From an uncultured bacterium (GTDB taxonomy: Bacteria; Verrucomicrobiota; Kiritimatiellia; PWTM01), in contig CAACVY010000018.1 in the NCBI GenBank assembly GCA_900661335.1, positions 1 through 42,888 on the forward strand: DNA of 42,888 bases. The letters are read 5' to 3'. Each line of letters opens with the position of its first letter. Within the stretch, counting starts at the first letter, position 1. A program made the position numbers and the translations under genes. The notes beneath the pieces were generated by a model that made no database searches, was not told the origin of the DNA, and saw only the letters and a program-made list of their open reading frames with translations. This document shows, one piece after another, positions 18,370 through 36,388 of this stretch.

Positions 18370-19455
18370 TCAGAGCAACACTTGAATGCCGAGCAGCCAC
18401 TGATCGGGGCTGTCGCCCCACCGGAACTCAAGGCCGCCGCGAATGTTGTGGTCCTTTCCGAACACGTGCAGCCCCACCGTGTAGTCCTCGATGGTGTGCG
18501 CCCGATCGGGGTCTTGCAAGGAATACTTCACTACGGGCATGAATTTCCCGATCAACAAGCCTGACTCAACGAACGACGTGTGGCCTTTGAATATCGCGTT
18601 GTCCCAGTCGTACCACGCGGCGTTGAGGGTTAGGTTGGCCCCCAGCACGTTCCAACCAGACTGTAGGTCCACCACCCAGTTATCCGAATCGATGATTTCC
18701 GGTGGCGGCGCCGGCGCTGCAGCGTCCTCCGAAAGACTCACACGTCGCGTGGCCTTGCCCTGGCGATCCACGCCGGCACCGATGGACAAGTAGTCGCCCG
18801 CTTTGCCCAGCCGGCACTGGTTGAAGAACCATCCGGATTCAGCTTCGCCGATCAGGTTGATGGCAATGTGGCCCGTCAGGCGCAAGTCCGCGTCGGGGTT
18901 CTTGGACCCGCCTTCCTCGTCGTACCCATCGAACACACCGATGAAATAAGCAATCCGGCGGTTCCAGAAGGTTCCGTGCAATTCCGCACCAATATCGCGC
19001 CAGACATGCGTATTGGGGAGTTTGAGCACTTCCACGTTATAGTCGTTACCCAAGAGAGTCGTCGCGCCGCTACGGCTCTCGAACGAGAAGGGGAGCAGGA
19101 TCAAACCAACTTTCAACCAGTGGTCCTTAAGCTCTGGCAGGCGAAGATCCACAAACAGGTCTTGCATCTTCAGGCGCGCATCGGTGCCATGCTTGCCTGC
19201 GTTGGGAATGTCGGTTTCCGCGAAGAACTGCACGCCGTCCATCACCTGGCCGGACAGAATGATTCTGGCCCGCCGAATGAAGAAGTCCGTTTCCGGGTCG
19301 GCGTCAGGTGTATGGGTTGCATGGATCTGACCCAAGAAACCATAGCTCATCCAACTGTCGGGTCCGAGTTCCACCTTGGGCCCCGCCTGAACTGCCCAGG
19401 CAAGGCCAGCCACCATGACGACAATTATCCAAACTTGAGTAGGTTGCCTCTTCAT
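18370..19455 (-). CDS. OprO/OprP-like outer-membrane porin
   Basis: This 361-residue outer-membrane beta-barrel is similar in layout to phosphate-selective porins O and P. A signal peptide (VWIIVVMVAGLAWAVQA) leads into WMSYGFLGQIHATH and then FFIRRARIILSGQVMDGVQFFAETD, the characteristic RRxRxxxxG porin segment. WLKVGLILLPFSFE follows, and the sequence ends with a terminal aromatic-poor strand, QWLLGIQVLL. I placed the start at the ATG at 19455, which precedes the signal peptide; a longer open frame to 19848 runs through the promoter region. A good promoter lies at 19506-19535. The solute is unknown; phosphate is only the family's namesake. Confidence 0.82.
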   Translation of the reverse strand: MKRQPTQVWIIVVMVAGLAWAVQAGPKVELGPDSWMSYGFLGQIHATHTPDADPETDFFIRRARIILSGQVMDGVQFFAETDIPNAGKHGTDARLKMQDLFVDLRLPELKDHWLKVGLILLPFSFESRSGATTLLGNDYNVEVLKLPNTHVWRDIGAELHGTFWNRRIAYFIGVFDGYDEEGGSKNPDADLRLTGHIAINLIGEAESGWFFNQCRLGKAGDYLSIGAGVDRQGKATRRVSLSEDAAAPAPPPEIIDSDNWVVDLQSGWNVLGANLTLNAAWYDWDNAIFKGHTSFVESGLLIGKFMPVVKYSLQDPDRAHTIEDYTVGLHVFGKDHNIRGGLEFRWGDSPDQWLLGIQVLL

Positions 19456-19505
19456 CCTGTCGCCCCTTTCTTTGCCGTTGTCCCACGACCAAGCACCGTA
19501 GTCGG

Positions 19506-19535
19506 AATATAGCGCACTTCGCCGTTCCGCCTCAA
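19506..19535 (-). promoter_or_regulatory. sigma70-type promoter for the porin gene
   Basis: On the minus strand TTGAGG (19530-19535) and TATATT (19506-19511) are spaced by 18 bases. The predicted start near 19499 leaves a leader of about 44 bases before the porin ATG at 19455. The remainder of the 384-base gap up to cpaB (19456-19839) shows no gene and no clear plus-strand promoter. Confidence 0.6.
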
Positions 19536-19839
19536 GTCTAGTCGCGGGCAACGGCTCGGAAAACCGCTTCCGGCCAACTTCCGCGGCGGAAAGCACCACA
19601 TGCATCCACTCGGTCCGCCATGGGGCCACGCAGGCGGTGTTCTGGAGTAACGCGCCGTGCACCACCGATGCCCACGCGACCTGCACGGGGGGCGGCTCGA
19701 CTGCGGGGTGGGGACGGGAACGCTGCGCGCACGCCCACATCGAGGTCTTCCCCCTGTGGCTCACTCGCCGGCATTGAGCTTGTATGGGGCCGCTAAATCT
19801 GCTAATGGGCAAGCAGAAGTCCATGGGGAACCTAGCGCC

Positions 19840-20643
19840 ATGAAACAAAAGCTGAATCTCATCGTGGCGGTGCTGATCGGCCTACTGGCCTTCGCGTGGA
19901 CGCATCACTATCTGCGGCGCGAGCGCGAAAAGATCTACGCCGGCGCTGAAACTGTCAAGGTTATCGTCGCACTCCAAGATATCCCAGCCGGGACGGTGTT
20001 GACCACGGACGTGTTGGGACAAAAGTCGGTCTTCAAGTCCGCCGTGGGCAACCAAGCGGTGTTACCGGAAGACTTGAACTACATCGTCGGAAAAAAGCTC
20101 CGATATATGGTCCGCCGCAACGATCCCCTTCTGTGGTCCGCGGTGGACGCGCCGGAACGACAGCGGTTCGGGCTGTCCCCGATGATCAAGACCGGCATGC
20201 GCGCATTGTCCTTGCCGATTGCCGGGGAGGCAGCCGTGAGCGGTTTGGTCCAACCCAACGATCGCGTGGACATCCTCGCCACGTTCACCATGCCATCGAA
20301 AACCACACCAGGACAGATGGAAACCGTGACGCTCACGTTGCTTCAGGACGTGCTGGTTCTGGCCACAGGGACTCGCTTGGCCCGCCCTGAAGGTGGGTAC
20401 CAATCCGCGTTTGAGGGACGTCCCACCAGCTACAGTTCCGTGACGCTGGAAGTGACCCCACTGGAGGCGGAGCTGTTGGTGTTCGCGCAGAACATGAAAG
20501 GACAGCTGACGCTCACGCTGCGTAATCCGGAGGATGTGTCGTATGTGAAAGACCCGCCGTCCGTGAACTTCAAATACCTCGAATCCAAGGTTCCAGAATT
20601 CAACCTCTTCCGCCAAAAGAACATCCACCACAAGCCCGATTGA
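19840..20643 (+). CDS. cpaB: Flp/Tad pilus assembly protein CpaB (RcpC)
   Basis: This 267-residue, single-pass inner-membrane/periplasmic protein belongs to Tad (type IVc) machines. The transmembrane helix is at about residues 5-22 (LNLIVAVLIGLLAFAW). The SAF domain follows with ALQDIPAGTVLTTDVL, and then the RcpC-like segment containing GMRALSLPI, GEAAVSGLVQPNDRVDILATF and LLQDVLVLATG, all hallmarks of CpaB. The start is the ATG at 19840; the frame is open upstream to 19657 but that part lacks coding features. The next gene begins three bases after the stop. It opens a four-gene set with an FHA-CpaF fusion, TadB and TadC. Confidence 0.93.
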   Translation: MKQKLNLIVAVLIGLLAFAWTHHYLRREREKIYAGAETVKVIVALQDIPAGTVLTTDVLGQKSVFKSAVGNQAVLPEDLNYIVGKKLRYMVRRNDPLLWSAVDAPERQRFGLSPMIKTGMRALSLPIAGEAAVSGLVQPNDRVDILATFTMPSKTTPGQMETVTLTLLQDVLVLATGTRLARPEGGYQSAFEGRPTSYSSVTLEVTPLEAELLVFAQNMKGQLTLTLRNPEDVSYVKDPPSVNFKYLESKVPEFNLFRQKNIHHKPD

Positions 20644-24502: not shown

Positions 24503-24537
24503 GGAAGCGGCAGTGTGTGCTGCCGCTTCTCCTTTTT
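24503..24537 (+). terminator. rho-independent terminator
   Basis: The stem GAAGCGGCAG (24504-24513) pairs with CTGCCGCTTC (24520-24529) around a six-base loop and is followed by a T run. A second, imperfect hairpin lies just before it (outer arms GAGCAC 24461-24466 and GTGCTC 24491-24496, inner arms GCGTC and GACGC). Confidence 0.8.
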
Positions 24538-24633: not shown

Positions 24634-25023
24634 ATGAAGCGCGTCTGTTCCAAGAGCCCTTGCGCCGGTCGCTCTGGCATTCACTCGGGGGGGATCCTGA
24701 AGCTGGTACTCGTCGTTCTTTGCATTTTTTGCATCACGGCCGCACCTTCCTTTGCGCGATTCGATCCTCCGATCCTCCGCACTAGCCACTGCGCCAGCTG
24801 CGCCACTCCCGACGATTCTCGGAGCTGTTCCGCCTGTCCCGACGGCTGTTCCAAACCGTGCGACTGTCCTCAGGGTACCCTGCTCCCTCCTCTCAGCTAT
24901 ATCGCCCCCCCGGTGACGATTGTGTGCGGCGTTCCAGCTATTTGGAGCGCTTTGCGAATTTTCGATCCGCTCGATCCACCCAACCGAAACGAACCTCCCC
25001 AGACACCGCCTCCCATTCGCTGA
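24634..25023 (+). CDS. exported Cys-rich small protein
   Basis: I do not recognise this 129-residue protein. The N-terminus is long and basic for a signal peptide (MKRVCSKSPCAGRSG), then the hydrophobic segment ILKLVLVVLCIFCITAAPSFA suggests export. The mature part carries a cluster of seven cysteines within 26 residues (53, 56, 65, 68, 72, 76, 78) in the order HCASC, SCSACPDGC, SKPCDC. A hydrophobic stretch and a Pro-rich tail (PPNRNEPPQTPPPIR) follow. The CxxC pairs suggest metal or disulfide chemistry in the envelope. It lies between the small-peptide unit and a second, even more Cys-rich exported protein, so the two are probably related in function. The ribosome-binding site before the ATG is weak, so a later start is possible. 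Confidence 0.6.
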   Translation: MKRVCSKSPCAGRSGIHSGGILKLVLVVLCIFCITAAPSFARFDPPILRTSHCASCATPDDSRSCSACPDGCSKPCDCPQGTLLPPLSYIAPPVTIVCGVPAIWSALRIFDPLDPPNRNEPPQTPPPIR

Positions 25024-25041
25024 CAACCGCTCGACGATGGA

Positions 25042-25065
25042 CGGCCGCCCACCCGTGGGCGGCCG
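25042..25065. repeat. GC-rich hairpin between the two Cys-rich genes
   Basis: CGGCCGCCCA (25042-25051) pairs perfectly with TGGGCGGCCG (25056-25065) around a four-base loop. The following bases are not a clear T tract on the plus strand, so it is at best a weak terminator or a message-stability element. Confidence 0.6.
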
Positions 25066-25114
25066 GTAGGGTTCGATTTCGTCCGCAGAGTGTACTCACA
25101 AGGAGAATGAAGCG

Positions 25115-25375
25115 ATGAGTAAACTTCTACATCGCCGGTCGTTCGTGGTTGCGGTGCTTTCACTCGTCCTGACGGCGCCGTGGCTTGTGGCGGCGCAACG
25201 CGGTGGCGGAACTTGCGGAGGCGGAAAGTCCTCCGAGTCTTCCGCGTGCCGGTGCGGTTGCTGCAACTGCCACGACTGCAAATGCGCGACTTGTAAGTGC
25301 TGCAAGTGTGAGACGTGCAAATGCACACCCAAAGCCGGAAGTGCCGCCGCAAAGTCCGGAGAAGCATCCGGTTAA
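25115..25375 (+). CDS. exported metallothionein-like protein with 14 cysteines
   Basis: This 86-residue protein has a clear Sec signal peptide (basic MSKLLHRRS, hydrophobic FVVAVLSLVLTAPWLVA, then AQ). The mature part of about 59 residues has 14 cysteines, at 34, 45, 47, 49, 50, 52, 55, 57, 60, 62, 63, 65, 68 and 70, and a repeated CKCxTCKC unit with alternating lysines. The pattern is like a metallothionein, but bacterial metallothioneins (SmtA, MymT) are cytoplasmic and no homology to them is apparent. The tail is Ala/Gly/Ser/Lys-rich. An AAGGAGA ribosome-binding site lies eight bases before the ATG, and a strong terminator follows. A role in envelope metal binding or cross-linking is inferred from composition. 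Confidence 0.75.
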   Translation: MSKLLHRRSFVVAVLSLVLTAPWLVAAQRGGGTCGGGKSSESSACRCGCCNCHDCKCATCKCCKCETCKCTPKAGSAAAKSGEASG

Positions 25376-25398
25376 CTAAACGTGGATTAGCATTCCGG

Positions 25399-25436
25399 GA
25401 CCGCTCGCCCGTCGTGGGCGAGCGGTCTTTGTTTTT
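25399..25436 (+). terminator. rho-independent terminator after the metallothionein-like gene
   Basis: A perfect 12-bp stem, GACCGCTCGCCC (25399-25410) with GGGCGAGCGGTC (25416-25427), and a five-base loop are followed by TTTGTTTTT. It also separates the unit from the convergent ferrochelatase gene. Confidence 0.9.
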
Positions 25437-29809: not shown

Positions 29810-32800
29810 TTAGCGCTGCGGTGGGACCACCTCGCGGACCGCGGCACCGAGCTCATCGTGAAGGACTAGAACCGCAAATTTTTGAGCCGACGTGAGAGCC
29901 GGATCTTGGATGGACGCGTAGTCGAAGCGGCCACGCAGGTCAGTGTAGCCGTCCTTGTAGAATTTGATCTCTCCGTTGGGCATGCGGGCATATACCTTTA
30001 CGTAGGCGGAGTGGACCGGTCTGCCTGTGGCCGCGTGGTGGACCGCGAGTTGTCCGTAGGCCTCGATAAACTCGGTGACTAAGCTGTTGGCGTAGCGTAG
30101 CACGACCTTCCGGATCCCGGTGCCGCTCGCTTCGATGAGAAGGTTGCGGGCATGAAGCTTCTCAGGGACTTCAACTGCGTAGGTGGTGCGGTCTTGAGGC
30201 AGACGAACGTCTAGAACATGGTGCGGGGCAATGATGGCAAGGTCGGCGGTGGCATCGACCGCGAAGGGGCTTCGGGAGAAGAGGGCTTCGACGTCTACCA
30301 TGTAGAAGCGAAGGGTGCATTCCTTGAGATTACGGTAGTCCAGGCGGATCCGGGTACCTTCGGGTGTCAGCTCCAGCGCAGGGCCCTGCGAGGCGAGAGA
30401 TTCGAGTAGCTGGAGGCGTTGTTCGGGGTCGGCCGGTTGCGTACGGGTTTCGCCTCGGATTTCGGCAAGTTGAGATGCGAGGGTACGGAAACGTGAGCGC
30501 CAGCGGGTAACGGGATGGTCTTGGTAGGCATTCGCCAGTCGTTCGGCGGTGCCAGTGTCGCCTTGGTACATGGCGAGATAGGCATGCAGGTAGTCGTATT
30601 GGACCTTCTCCGTAATACGGTCGGATTTGACGCGAGAGAACCATTGAATCGATTCTGCGACGCGATCCTGGAGGGACATGTAGTAGGCGATCGCCAGCTG
30701 GTCTTCATCGTCGAGTGCAGGTTTGAAGGAAAGGTAGCGGAGGTATGAGCGGTACTGTTCAAGGAAGGGTGGGTTGAAGATTTGATGTCGGCCCTGAAGG
30801 GGATGAGCGCGTGCGTGGATTAAGGGATCGTACTCGAGATGCCGGTAGCGATCTTCGCGGGATGCGTCCACGGATAGGACTCGGGATGCGACGAATAGTC
30901 CACAGCGAGCTCCAAACCCAATCGCGGTGAGGTAAGTACCCACGCGGGCTGGATCGTTGTGGAACAGGGCGTAGGACCAAAGCACCGGGGAAAAGTGCTT
31001 GCGGGCTTCGAGGATCTCAATCGCGGAGCGGTAAAACGCCGGATCTTTCATACGCCAGGCGATCTCGCCGAGGTCGAGTCGGTGCAGGTTCGCCTTGCGC
31101 AGGAACTCAAGCACCTCTTCGGGCTGGCCTTGGTGAGCGATCCAGATCCAAGATTCCGTGTCGGGGCGTGTCGGAGAGTCCACGACTTTGAATGGGCGCG
31201 TGCGGGCTCGGGCTAGACATCGCTCGTTTTCCAACACTGTGGCGGGGTAGTGGGAAAACTCGCCCGGCTGAGGGAAGTAGAAGGAGTATTCTATTTTCCA
31301 AGTGCTGTAGGGTTCGAGCACGATGCGCTGGGTCTTGGTGTACAAGCTGCCGTTCAGTGGGATGGCGCCGGCTGGGAGCTGGTAGAGCACGGCGATGTAC
31401 CGACGCTGGCCGGTCGGGTTCGTTAGGACGATCCGCGCCCCGTACGGAACACCCACCAGAAACTCTTCCGTCACATACTTGTCGACGCGTTCAGCGCCGT
31501 CGAATCGCCAGGGGTCGTCAAGGCGGAAGAAGTTTTCGACGACGAGGATTTGGTCCTGTTGTGGATGAGGCTCGGCGACCTGAATGCGACGAGCGTACAG
31601 GAGAGCAGGAGCGGCAGGTTCGATCCGGACCTGGTGTGCATCGGCCTTAATATTGTGTTTTGGCGGTTCGAATGGAAGATCCAGGGAGGCCAAGGCGAGG
31701 AGTGCTTCGTTGACGCTTTGGGTACAGGCGAGGAAGTACCGGCTTAAGAATGGCCCGCCGGCGTGGTGCGCCAGTTCGGTCCAGAACCGGTTGGTTGTAC
31801 ACAAGCCCCGCGTGACGTACGCAGGTTTTTGTCGAAAGTATTGCTGTTCAGCAAGTTCTTTCGGAGGAGGCGCAGCGCGAAAGAGCGGGCGCGGCGCACC
31901 GGAAGGTTCGGCAGCGAAGAATCCCGATAGTTTGTCCGCTTGGCTCGCCCTTTCGGTTTCCGTTTGAAGCGCGCTCTTGCGCATTTCTCGGTTGGCTGCG
32001 GCATCCTTTGCGTCGGCGACCTCGATCCGGTCGGCTGCAGCTTCCCGGGCGCGCCTCAGTGCCATCTCGGCAGGGGCGGCGGGTGCTACAGCGGCGGTTC
32101 CGGCGCGTCCGGCGCCGCGTTGGGCCTCGTCCGCCAGCGCTGCGGCGACCATCCCGTCGGCGGTGAGCTGGGCGGCCGCCTGTGGGCGAGGCAGTCCTTC
32201 AAATAGGACGGAAGCCGCGGCGAACTCTGAGCCGAGGAGCCCCGCGTCCAGGACACAGTCGAAAAGGAAATCTTCTTGGGTGGGATTGATGGGAAGCAAT
32301 TCTGCCAAGCTCCCGAGTTCGGCGACGATAGCGGCTTTTTCGTCGGGCAGGGAGTTGGCGAGGAGAATTTTCTCGAACAGGTTTAGACGGCGATAGCTCG
32401 GTAGGGGACGGTATGGGGAGAGGTCTCGGCCGAGCAACCAGTCGTCCAAGAAGGTTTTCTCGCGCTTGTTCTGTACATACGGGAGGACGACTTGTTCGAA
32501 GAAGGTGGGGTCTTTTCGGCGCAGAAAGTAGTGCAGCTCGTGGCAGGCGTAGCGGGAGTAGTAATCGAGTTTTTCGTCCCGCGTCAGCCTGGGCCAGCGG
32601 GTAATGAATTCGAAAGGTTCCAGATCGCGAGCGCCGGCGGCCACGAGAATGCGGAAAGCACGGCTGATCGTGTCGAGAAGTTCATACCGGAAGTATGGGG
32701 TGATGGGGAGAGTGACCGGCTGGCCCGGTTGGAGGATCTGGACGACCTTTTCTTCTTTGAAACTTTGGTTCGGATCGAGCGCCTGAGCAAGGCGGCGGTC

Positions 32801-35800
32801 AGTCGTAGGCACAGGGGCGTCGGGCAACGCGACGTGACGGAGCACGGCTTGCGCCGGGTCCGCTGCCCAAATTCGCACCCACGAACACCCTCGCAGTTGG
32901 TCACGGGGAATTCGGACCCAGCCATCTGGGTCGGGCGTCAGGTTCAGGAACACGGGCGATGGTTCTTGGAGGAAATCGAGCGTGGCGTACTGTTCGGCTA
33001 TGGAAACCCCAGTGGCTGCGCCTTTCTCCATGGCCAGGCCCGCGGTGGGGGCGGTCTGTTGACGGTAGGCGGTGCCGGCTTGCAGCACTGGCGCTTGGAC
33101 CTCTGTGGTGCGCAGAGCCCACGGATTCAGGAGCAACGACGGGCGTTCCAACATATTGCCGGGGAACCGTTGTGCCAGACGGCGATCGAGAATGTACCGC
33201 ATTTCGTCGCTCAACACGCGCCCGGACTGGTAGAAGGAAACCGGTTGGGGTAAGGGAACCTGGAATAGGGGAGGCCAGTAGGTGGGCCCCATCAAAGTGA
33301 GCAGGTCGAACGGTGGCAGGAACCGTGTGGCGAAGACATGTACCCGGACCAACGGGTTGGGGTTCAGGACGCGGACGACGACTTCGTTATCGCGGACTTC
33401 CGGAACGCTGAGTTGTAGTGGGGAGGATGGCGACAGTTGGAGGGCACGGTGACGGGAGATCACGTAGCGGTCGCGGCGATCCCCTGCGGCTACGCGGATC
33501 AGCATCTCTTTACCGCCGGGGATCCAAAAAAGGGAGTAGTCACCTGGCTCTAGGCCGCGGAGCTCAAGGAACGGCTCCACTATGGAGAGTGCAGCGGAAC
33601 GATCGGCGGCGAAGGTATCGCCGCGGAGTTCCAGCAGAGAAAACTGGTCTGGGCGTGGCAAGGGCTTCACCACCGGCAGTGGGAGCCGGAGGGGTTCGCC
33701 GGCGACTGCGTGGATCGGCTGGGGCCCCGTCCACGCATCAGAAGGAAGCGGAATCTCGACTTGAGAACCGGGCGGGCAGTGAACGGTCTGGCGCAGTTGC
33801 GCAAGTTCCGGTCGCGAGGTGGCCTCGAACATATCGGTGGGAGGTGTGTAGGTCACCTTAATGGCCTCGATATGCTCAAGTAACCCTAGGAAGACGCGGC
33901 CGTGCTCGTCGGTCTGGAACAAATCGGTGTAATCGCGGGTAACCCCCTTCGGTTGAAGGGCCACAGAGAGCGAGGCGTGCGGAATGGCTTCTCCATTCTT
34001 CCCGCGCAGTTCGAGGACGAAACCATCTGAGGTTCTGCGTACGAGCACTTGCCGCGAAGCGCCAGTTCGGTCGATGCTGTTGACAGCAAAGCGCGCCGAG
34101 GTGGACAGGTCCAGTTTCCCGTGAGTCACACGGCTGGTGATACGACCTTGCAATCGGAGCTCTAGGAGTTGGAGATCTGGTGGCGCACGGAAGAGCAGCA
34201 CAGCCTGCCCATCCGGGTCGAACTGGACCGGATAGTATTCCCGCTCCGTCACAATCCCTTGAAGGTCCATTGCGCGAAGGACTGCACGTGGCTCTTCAAG
34301 TAGCTGGATTTGAAGAGGTTGTTGATGGGCCAGCAGCGTAGCGCGGATCAGCACCGGCACTTCGGCGCCGGGTAAAATGCGTTCCCGTTCGATGTACACG
34401 CCCGCGCGCAGCTCGAACGATTCGCGGAGATGCTGAAACCGGACCAACGTCGCGAAGTCGTCCACGCCGACGACCAAGGGAGCGTCGGTGGGTTCGGTGG
34501 TATAGGGGACGACGATGTCACCGTCTTCGCCAGCCGGAAACTCATGTTGACCCAGCCAAGCGCGTGCGTTCATGACTTTTTGGCCTTGCTCGTCGTAGAC
34601 GGAGAGACGGTGCCCCGCGGCGGACAAGGTCTGGACCACTGCCAAGCGGCCTTTCTGGATTAATGCTCGACAACTTTTCCCACCGCCGACGCATTCCACG
34701 ACCCAGGCTCCTCGCCCTTGGAGTTGTGGAAACTCAAACGTGCGAAGCACGCGGCGTTGTGGGGGATCCTGGTAGGTATGCGTCTCCGAGTGGGTCGGAA
34801 CCAACCCCTCCAAGTTGACGGCGAGATCCAGTGGGCGTCCGGTATGACGGTAGTAATTGACGGTGTGGAGCCGATAGACGTGGACTTGGAGGTTGGTGAT
34901 GTTTTTGACGAAGACTGTGAGCCGTACGGGATCAGCCGGCGCGAACTGGTCTGGATTTTGCGGGGAAAATTCCAGATCCACGCGCTTTTGGATGGCTTCG
35001 AACTCCGAAGCTGGAATCCACCCGGCCCACTTCGCAGGATCCCCAATCCCGTTCACGAGTTTCGCCTCCACGAACAGCCGCCGCAGGACCTCGTCGCGCA
35101 CCCAGGGCCGGAACGCTTCAAAATCTTGGGCGTCGGCCAAGAAGTACAAGAGGTAGTCGCGCACCAGCGGTTCGTCGTTCCCGATGGGAGTTAGGAGCGG
35201 CAGATTAGGATTCGCGTCGAGGCGTGCGAGATGTGCGGCGGGAAGGCGCTCGACTGCGTGGGCGGGCGCGTACGGGACTGCACGTGGGAGTTTCAGATAT
35301 TGGAGGAAGCGTTCCCGGTTGTAGATGCCCATGCGGCGATCGTGTACGAGGCGGTGGTACAGGACCGCGCCTTTGAGGCTGTTGTGGACCGGCGCCAGAG
35401 TGCTCACGAATTGCCAAAGCCGTTCAAGGTAGCGTTCCCGTTGTGCGGGGTCGGTCACGACGTCCTCCTCCGAAGTGGGGACGAGTTTGGCAAGGTACGT
35501 TTGGACAAACGTTTCTTCATTCCGGAGTAAGGGACGTTTTTGAAGGAGTTGGTCCAACTGCTCGCGAGTCAATTTTCGGTGAATCTCCAGGGTCCCGAAT
35601 GGTTCTGCGTTCGGGCGTGCGAGATCGCTGGCAATTAGGTCCACAAGACCGGGGAAGTCGGGCCGCTTTAATCGCCGGAGCAGCTCGCGTTGGCGCGGTT
35701 CGCTCAAGGGCCGGCCTGCGAGCAGGTACAAACCTTCATCATTGAATGCGGACAGGTCTTCCGCACCGCAGCGACTCAAGGCCCACTCGACCAACCGGTC

Positions 35801-36244
35801 CTGGGACACTTGGGCGGGGTCCAAGCGCGATGGATATCGTGGTTGGGTCTCGGGCGAGCGACGGACGTGGTTGAATTGCAGGCGGAGCTTGTTCACGAGC
35901 CCCGCTAGCGCGTTGGGGTCTCCACGGTCGTACTCCAGCACGAGTTGACGGGCCTCGAGTTCTTCGTATCGCGGGTCGCTGCGGTGGGCGCTCTTCCACT
36001 CTTGGAGAAGTTTTCTCGCCTCATCGAGCCGGCCGGTATTTTGTGCGTGCAGTGCGCGGTAAAAGAAGAAATCCGGCGTTCCGGGCAGCAGGTCGCGGAG
36101 CGCTTGTTCGCGATCGAGGGCCAATGCGAATTTTTCGATGAAGCCGATCTCGTGGCTGGGCTGAGCCAGCGCAGCCGTGGCCACTAGTACGGTCCCAACC
36201 AGAAACCGAGAGAGCGGCGGCGTGGAGTTGATAGTTCGGTTCAT
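29810..36244 (-). CDS. giant exported protein with macroglobulin-like and TPR-like regions
   Basis: This single uninterrupted gene encodes about 2,144 residues. I chose the ATG at 36244, which has AGAGGTG upstream and a signal peptide directly after it (FLVGTVLVATAALAQ). Residues of about 35-120 look like TPR helices (ALHAQNTGRLDEARKLLQEW). The region from about 420 to 900 is beta-rich with macroglobulin MG2-like segments, such as YIERERILPGAEVPVLIRATL near 620. An Ala/Glu/Arg-rich low-complexity insert lies at about 1350-1430. TPR-like repeats return at about 1850-1930, and the end carries FYKDGYTDLRGRFDYAS near 2105. I see no CxEQ thioester, so it is not a classical alpha-2-macroglobulin trap. 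I recall the DGYTDLRGRFDY ending in other very large uncharacterised proteins. It lies upstream of dnaN. Function is unknown; a periplasmic or surface role is inferred. Confidence 0.85.
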   Translation of the reverse strand: MNRTINSTPPLSRFLVGTVLVATAALAQPSHEIGFIEKFALALDREQALRDLLPGTPDFFFYRALHAQNTGRLDEARKLLQEWKSAHRSDPRYEELEARQLVLEYDRGDPNALAGLVNKLRLQFNHVRRSPETQPRYPSRLDPAQVSQDRLVEWALSRCGAEDLSAFNDEGLYLLAGRPLSEPRQRELLRRLKRPDFPGLVDLIASDLARPNAEPFGTLEIHRKLTREQLDQLLQKRPLLRNEETFVQTYLAKLVPTSEEDVVTDPAQRERYLERLWQFVSTLAPVHNSLKGAVLYHRLVHDRRMGIYNRERFLQYLKLPRAVPYAPAHAVERLPAAHLARLDANPNLPLLTPIGNDEPLVRDYLLYFLADAQDFEAFRPWVRDEVLRRLFVEAKLVNGIGDPAKWAGWIPASEFEAIQKRVDLEFSPQNPDQFAPADPVRLTVFVKNITNLQVHVYRLHTVNYYRHTGRPLDLAVNLEGLVPTHSETHTYQDPPQRRVLRTFEFPQLQGRGAWVVECVGGGKSCRALIQKGRLAVVQTLSAAGHRLSVYDEQGQKVMNARAWLGQHEFPAGEDGDIVVPYTTEPTDAPLVVGVDDFATLVRFQHLRESFELRAGVYIERERILPGAEVPVLIRATLLAHQQPLQIQLLEEPRAVLRAMDLQGIVTEREYYPVQFDPDGQAVLLFRAPPDLQLLELRLQGRITSRVTHGKLDLSTSARFAVNSIDRTGASRQVLVRRTSDGFVLELRGKNGEAIPHASLSVALQPKGVTRDYTDLFQTDEHGRVFLGLLEHIEAIKVTYTPPTDMFEATSRPELAQLRQTVHCPPGSQVEIPLPSDAWTGPQPIHAVAGEPLRLPLPVVKPLPRPDQFSLLELRGDTFAADRSAALSIVEPFLELRGLEPGDYSLFWIPGGKEMLIRVAAGDRRDRYVISRHRALQLSPSSPLQLSVPEVRDNEVVVRVLNPNPLVRVHVFATRFLPPFDLLTLMGPTYWPPLFQVPLPQPVSFYQSGRVLSDEMRYILDRRLAQRFPGNMLERPSLLLNPWALRTTEVQAPVLQAGTAYRQQTAPTAGLAMEKGAATGVSIAEQYATLDFLQEPSPVFLNLTPDPDGWVRIPRDQLRGCSWVRIWAADPAQAVLRHVALPDAPVPTTDRRLAQALDPNQSFKEEKVVQILQPGQPVTLPITPYFRYELLDTISRAFRILVAAGARDLEPFEFITRWPRLTRDEKLDYYSRYACHELHYFLRRKDPTFFEQVVLPYVQNKREKTFLDDWLLGRDLSPYRPLPSYRRLNLFEKILLANSLPDEKAAIVAELGSLAELLPINPTQEDFLFDCVLDAGLLGSEFAAASVLFEGLPRPQAAAQLTADGMVAAALADEAQRGAGRAGTAAVAPAAPAEMALRRAREAAADRIEVADAKDAAANREMRKSALQTETERASQADKLSGFFAAEPSGAPRPLFRAAPPPKELAEQQYFRQKPAYVTRGLCTTNRFWTELAHHAGGPFLSRYFLACTQSVNEALLALASLDLPFEPPKHNIKADAHQVRIEPAAPALLYARRIQVAEPHPQQDQILVVENFFRLDDPWRFDGAERVDKYVTEEFLVGVPYGARIVLTNPTGQRRYIAVLYQLPAGAIPLNGSLYTKTQRIVLEPYSTWKIEYSFYFPQPGEFSHYPATVLENERCLARARTRPFKVVDSPTRPDTESWIWIAHQGQPEEVLEFLRKANLHRLDLGEIAWRMKDPAFYRSAIEILEARKHFSPVLWSYALFHNDPARVGTYLTAIGFGARCGLFVASRVLSVDASREDRYRHLEYDPLIHARAHPLQGRHQIFNPPFLEQYRSYLRYLSFKPALDDEDQLAIAYYMSLQDRVAESIQWFSRVKSDRITEKVQYDYLHAYLAMYQGDTGTAERLANAYQDHPVTRWRSRFRTLASQLAEIRGETRTQPADPEQRLQLLESLASQGPALELTPEGTRIRLDYRNLKECTLRFYMVDVEALFSRSPFAVDATADLAIIAPHHVLDVRLPQDRTTYAVEVPEKLHARNLLIEASGTGIRKVVLRYANSLVTEFIEAYGQLAVHHAATGRPVHSAYVKVYARMPNGEIKFYKDGYTDLRGRFDYASIQDPALTSAQKFAVLVLHDELGAAVREVVPPQR

Positions 36245-36388
36245 GACGCACCTCTTTGACTTCGCATGGACGATTCGGATCATCCGCTATGGAATACGTC
36301 CCAGGGGGTCTCCTTCTTCAGCTTATGCCCTGGGATTCTTGGAGACAACCGGCCAACTGCGATGACCAGGGCTTGGGTGGACTCCGGC

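Follow-up and report, generated by a model that had tools for sequence, protein, structure and literature searches.

To our knowledge, the accepted location of bacterial metallothioneins is the cytoplasm. SmtA and the copper metallothionein MymT are both placed in the cytosol (in part, PMC7558416), and PmtA has no signal peptide yet reaches the cell surface (PMC11237414). Csp1 is a Cys-rich copper store that is exported by the Tat system and folds as a four-helix bundle (PMC7558416). Two other small proteins, CutF and CruR, act while they are still on the ribosome (PMC8456105, PMC9426467). CutF, from Rhodobacter capsulatus, has a signal peptide, a CxxxC motif, and a C-terminal GPPPRL, and it was first proposed to be a copper-binding assembly factor (PMC8456105). 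The CXXC and RAPP motifs of CruR are separated by 45 residues, a spacing that is conserved and needed for copper control (PMC9426467), and arrest of CruR at its own PP was demonstrated in vitro (PMC12992588).

A published filter for CutF-like proteins uses a length below 150 amino acids, an N-terminal signal peptide, PP in the last 15 residues, and a same-strand gene within 1,000 nucleotides (PMC9973294). The first of the two adjacent genes described here, p1, has all of these features (the signal was judged by eye). It also has a conserved Cys site at a near-constant distance from its PP.

A recurring pair of genes for Cys-rich proteins

The window (the whole stretch of DNA that we analyzed, 42,888 nucleotides) is a single contig of a draft genome, G000 (2.63 Mb, 68% complete). 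The closest named relatives of its tadC gene are in Kiritimatiellae/Lentisphaerae drafts. The original prediction, made from the sequence alone, placed two adjacent Cys-rich, signal-bearing proteins at positions 24634 to 25375. We agree with this: p1 has seven Cys within 26 residues (CASCATPDDSRSCSACPDGCSKPCDC), and p2 has 14 Cys after a signal-like N terminus, with both signals judged by eye (Table 1). The genes 5' of the pair are Tad genes, encoding an RcpC/CpaB-like protein, an FHA-T2SSE ATPase, and two T2SSF proteins. Genes for a ferrochelatase and a sodium:solute symporter lie 3' of it on the opposite strand. Elsewhere on the minus strand of the window, positions 18370 to 19848 encode a protein with a weak likeness to the ExtI porin of selenite/tellurite reduction operons (E 4e-9, under the cut-off), and a very long open reading frame (ORF) of 2157 amino acids occupies positions 29810 to 36283.

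Table 1. Features of the p1-p2 locus and its 5' boundary (window positions)
Feature	Position	Strand	Basis or remark
Lys/Ala/Cys peptide, 21 aa	24392-24457	+	
Terminator-like hairpin between Lys/Ala/Cys peptide and p1	24503..24530	+	Boundary, outside the p1-p2 unit
p1, CutF/CruR-like leader protein, 129 aa, putatively exported	24634..25023	+	ORF; next to p2 in 8 other genomes
p1 Cys cluster, residues 53-78 (CxxC, CxxxC, CxC), putative Cu-sensing site	24790..24867	+	Sequence, alignment
p1 C-terminal RNEPPQTPPPIR (R-x7-PP-I), putative ribosome-arrest motif	24985..25020	+	R and PP invariant
GC hairpin GGCCGCCCAC-CC-GTGGGCGGCC between p1 and p2, perfect	25043..25064	+	
Shine-Dalgarno sequence of p2, AAGGAG	25100..25105	+	Sequence
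p2, metallothionein-like protein, 86 aa, putatively exported	25115..25375	+	ORF; invariant Cys; low dN/dS
p2 signal-like segment with twin-Arg HRRSFVV (Tat-like)	25115..25195	+	Sequence, judged by eye
p2 Cys core CRCGCCNCHDCKCATCKCCKCETCKC	25247..25324	+	Alignment
Intrinsic terminator 3' of p2	25397..25429	+	Similar hairpin after p2 in 8/8 genomes folded

A search of 58 relatives with p2 found distant copies. Each true copy was preceded by a second Cys-rich, signal-bearing ORF corresponding to p1, which was not part of the query. Profile searches added G001, G145, and G077 from the same class and G456 from another class. Nine genomes from five families and two classes of the phylum have the two genes side by side and in one order, with conserved Cys in all those besides the window genome (G001, G002, G023, G046, G145, G032, and G077, and G456 of the other class). 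Wherever p2 has a signal-like segment (nine genomes), p1 is directly 5' of it. The gap between the genes is 40 to 91 nucleotides in the eight full pairs; the G077 contig starts within p1, and the visible end of p1 there is GRSEAPPTPPPIGPLV. Occurrence is patchy (9 of 346 genomes of the class, one of them doubtful), and a p2 search of plasmids and viral contigs found none. Low-E searches also returned L006, L007, L009, L010, and L051 to L054, which we rejected as chance or unrelated frames. We set aside a match in G073, a Cys-rich frame for which neither a signal peptide nor an accompanying p1 could be seen.

Within one genus, p2 has a dN of 0.03 to 0.11 versus a dS of 0.26 to 1.38 (dN/dS about 0.1). 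Because the pair recurs with conserved Cys and p2 has dN below dS, p1 and p2 are not chance frames, and the sequence comparisons indicate that they are real genes. The original prediction had named homologues lacking conserved Cys, or frames that are not translated, as grounds for giving it up; we found conserved Cys and purifying selection. A strong hairpin lies 3' of p2 in all eight genomes that were folded, so the pair ends its transcript.

p1 has a Cys cluster and a C-terminal motif at near-constant spacing

The start codon of p1 is uncertain. Homology begins at position 24697, a CTG after a G-rich stretch, and this is perhaps the true start. The N-terminal segment is hydrophobic and signal-like by eye. 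p1 has no match in Pfam or NCBIfam. We rejected membership in DUF2946 (PF11162), since hmmscan of seven p1 homologues, with E values up to 10 allowed, did not return it.

Among nine aligned homologues, C53, C65, C68, and C76 are invariant, and individual proteins have up to 12 Cys. The nine full-length homologues are 114 to 129 amino acids long, with PP 2 to 5 residues before the end (TPPPIR in the window). Of 100 long ORFs from the same loci, only 3 have PP within their last 8 residues. In all ten p1 sequences the distance from the conserved R to PP is 8, and the spacing from CxC to PP is 44 to 48 residues, with G145 lacking one Cys of the CxC. The residues between CxC and PP are mostly variable. 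Within one genus, p1 has a dN of 0.16 to 0.31 versus a dS of 0.47 to 0.87, and it is far more variable than p2.

Using p1 as the query returned the same genomes as the p2 search plus G088. In G088, a p1-like gene carrying this motif comes first in an operon of another kind, which encodes a lipoprotein and a MacB-type ABC transporter and has no p2. This is expected if p1 is a regulatory leader, and the G088 operon is possibly a further metal-controlled leader operon. The G088 locus is L059:4836-7550 (minus strand); its p1-like leader ends in RTDAPPSRPPI, and the transporter is of the MacB/FtsX type.

p2 is a metallothionein-like protein

The prediction that p2 is metallothionein-like held up. 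It is small and Cys-dense, with conserved CxC, CC, and CxxC motifs and few aromatic residues, and its core follows the pattern CC-x-C-x2-C-x-C-x2-C-x-CC-x-C-x2-C-x-C. Eight Cys are invariant in the eight aligned genomes, and the 11 core Cys are kept in most. The CKCxTCKC repeat noted originally is also there, as CKCATCKC and CKCETCKC. Even so, p2 has no Pfam match (and none to any Pfam metallothionein model up to E 10), no NCBIfam match, and no match among PDB chains.

Twin-Arg motifs occur in the p2 signals of the window genus (three same-genus homologues; HRRSFVV, HRRVVLR, and SRRFAI), and the window genome encodes TatC. Therefore, p2 is possibly exported by the Tat system in this genus, as Csp1 is. 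The p2 signals in other genera are plain Sec-like.

A copper-type regulator and operator in relatives

In G023, the unit has the order csoR, YHS-like gene (product putatively exported), p1, p2. Its CsoR matches PF02583 (E 3e-29), and the nearest solved structures are copper CsoRs. The Cys, His, and Cys ligand positions are kept. In a sister genome, G056, the same csoR-YHS pair heads cusC-cusB-cusA, and that genome has no p2 match. The core of the published CsoR operator is TAC-N9-GTA (PMC3902906), and all three upstream sequences fit it: TATACCGGTTGGGGGTATA in G023, TATACCCTATGGGGGTATA in G056, and ATACCCGATCAGGGTAT in G145. At the p1-p2 unit itself, csoR and the operator occur together in G023, and the operator only in G145. 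The csoR gene and its neighbor for a TCPVM...CCGGC protein look like a portable module, heading cusCBA at L061:3731-11264 (G056) versus p1-p2 at L017:7817-8365 (G023). This protein is YHS-like by eye, with no YHS match in Pfam.

We found no csoR in the window genome (68% complete), G001, G002, G032, or G456, so copper is extrapolated across families. In genomes with no csoR, p1 may be the sole dedicated local sensor. In G046, what would be the CsoR operator site looks decayed (ATATGCCTGTGCGAGGTGTAT, L018:8490-8550), and we found no csoR in this genome; transcriptional control has apparently been lost there while the leader was kept. Upstream of p1 in the window, no TAC-N9-GTA was seen when the sequence was read by eye, and there was no match to a sigma-70-type promoter. 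Rfam gave sub-threshold CsrC matches only, on the terminator.

Predicted unmasking of the p2 Shine-Dalgarno sequence in two genomes

We calculated how much energy it takes to open the p2 Shine-Dalgarno sequence when a ribosome is parked on the p1 PP and when none is, using synonymous recodings of the p1 end as controls. The parked ribosome was predicted to free the sequence by 3.1 kcal/mol in G046 and 7.3 kcal/mol in G145, which is above 91% and 99% of the controls, respectively. G023 and G032 leaned the same way without significance. The calculation showed no such effect in the window, G001, or G002, giving no support in this genus to masking by the 3' end of p1. A ribosome paused at PP would not reach the perfect hairpin between the window genes, and the window intergenic region is no more stable than shuffled sequences (z -0.7). 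Across genomes, the intergenic folds had z values of -1.8 to +0.9, none of them significant. These models make the CutF stem-loop route plausible in one genus only. In the window, control might instead run through mRNA processing or through Rho-dependent attenuation of the kind seen with CruR.

The Lys/Ala/Cys peptide and the Tad genes

It had been proposed that the Lys/Ala/Cys peptide and the Tad genes belong with the pair. In three other genomes of the window genus (G001, G002, and G003), the gene after tadC encodes a MPAKKAAKKPAKKAAKKK-type peptide, MPAKK(K)AAKKPAKKAAKKK, that has no Cys. The p1-p2 pair is on a different contig from tadC in G001 and G002, and G003 has no pair. Because these same-genus genomes have a Cys-free peptide beside tadC and the pair elsewhere or not at all, comparison of the loci indicates that the peptide and the Tad genes are bystanders. 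The suggested search for the trio beside Tad genes in other genomes gave the same answer. Five further tadC loci (L011 to L015) all have a Cys-free Lys/Ala peptide, and no pair was found in the stretches examined around them.

The MPAKK... Lys/Ala peptide (about 18 to 28 amino acids) follows tadC in every tadC locus seen, including L011 to L015 and L063 to L065. It has a strong G-rich ribosome-binding site, and the gene after it is nrdR in L011, L012, and L063. The Cys end is peculiar to the window copy.

Discussion

We consider it likely that p1-p2 is a copper-response unit, in which a CutF/CruR-type leader controls a metallothionein-like, exported p2. Behind this are the conservation of the pair, its motifs, their spacing, and the end of the transcript, together with the copper-type regulator and operator in relatives. 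From these we infer that the ribosome arrests, that the metal is copper, that the proteins are exported, and that p1 controls p2. The p1 Cys cluster, 44 to 48 residues before PP, would sample extracytoplasmic copper during synthesis and export, with PP still inside the ribosome. Metal binding by nascent p1 would alter the length of a ribosome pause near the stop codon, and this in turn would set p2 expression. The near-constant distance from the Cys site to PP in ten divergent sequences would then be a ruler for the position of the sensing site at the pause. p2 would trap Cu(I), and perhaps other soft metals, in the envelope. A broader proposal, to which we hold more tentatively, is that these p2 proteins form a family of copper metallothioneins that is exported and has not been described before, with synthesis set by a nascent-chain copper sensor encoded just 5'. 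In the window genus, they might be exported by Tat after folding around metal, with copper as the cargo.

Metallothioneins also bind zinc and cadmium. The main role of p2, as an exported thiol protein, could be to bind zinc or cadmium or to act as a redox buffer; p1 would then respond to that metal or to the redox state and not to copper. Otherwise this explanation overlaps with the copper-response unit. The p1 Cys sites are not copper specific, and most carriers have no csoR. However, in the genus that has a transcriptional regulator, we see csoR, CsoR-type operators, and a sister csoR-cusCBA operon, and we regard a metal other than copper as rather unlikely. Alternatively, p1 and p2 might be cooperating exported metal-binding proteins, such as a chaperone/storage pair, with p1 stable in the periplasm and PP a docking or folding element. 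Both proteins are Cys-rich with signals and are always adjacent, p1 can have up to 12 Cys, and CutF itself was first taken for a copper-binding assembly factor (PMC8456105). Against this, the most constant features of p1 are 2 to 5 residues from the stop codon at a fixed distance from the Cys site, p1 varies far more than p2, and it also heads the unrelated G088 operon with no p2. We think a cooperating pair unlikely, and p1 is probably not a structural partner of p2.

The original prediction went further, to an undescribed envelope metal-binding or cross-linked surface system that takes in the pair, the peptide, and the Tad genes. Metal handling is the part of it that is probable, and nothing that we found suggested cross-linked surface material. 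Physical closeness on one contig favors the larger grouping, but a terminator-like hairpin lies between the peptide and p1, and genomes inside and outside the genus have Tad genes with a Cys-free Lys/Ala peptide and no pair beside them. We give this proposal almost no credence.

If the copper-response unit is real, then the envelope would hold a conserved, signal-bearing family for metal-thiolate buffering as well as Csp1-type stores. Extracytoplasmic copper sensing by a ribosome-bound chain, as in CutF and CruR, would gain both a lineage and a kind of target gene that are new to it. We did not find this combination of a CutF/CruR-type sensor and an exported metallothionein-like protein in the open-licence full texts that we searched.

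By its likeness to them, p1 probably works like the CutF and CruR leaders and is a candidate member of their kind. As in CutF, p1 is small, with a Sec-type signal, a CxxxC-like Cys site, and a proline-rich C terminus (GPPPRL versus TPPPIR) (PMC9973294, PMC8456105). It is also directly 5' of a putative copper-handling gene on the same strand, and in G046 and G145 a stalled ribosome is predicted to free the downstream Shine-Dalgarno sequence. However, CutF targets are oxidase, efflux, and chaperone genes, whereas the gene after p1 encodes a metallothionein-like, putatively exported protein. p1 also differs in having many more Cys and an extra invariant R eight residues before PP, in the lack of a masking stem in the window, and in its Verrucomicrobiota-type host. 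Like CruR, a DUF2946 protein of Bordetella pertussis (PMC9426467, PMC12992588), p1 has a signal, a Cys motif, and a C-terminal Arg/Pro-Pro, with about 45 residues from Cys to PP. Unlike CruR, it has no DUF2946 match, its R is eight residues before PP and not part of RAPP, and the next gene does not encode a TonB receptor.

p2 resembles SmtA, BmtA, PmtA, and MymT in being small and dominated by CxC, CxxC, and CC. It differs from them in its N-terminal export signal (judged by eye), its Cys pattern, and its lack of a family match. Like Csp1, it is Cys-rich, putatively exported, and a candidate copper store, but it is a short, Cys-dense chain without the length or pattern of Csp1. Judged from these sequence features, p1-p2 is probably a variant of CutF-type control, and p2 is probably outside the catalogued metallothionein families.
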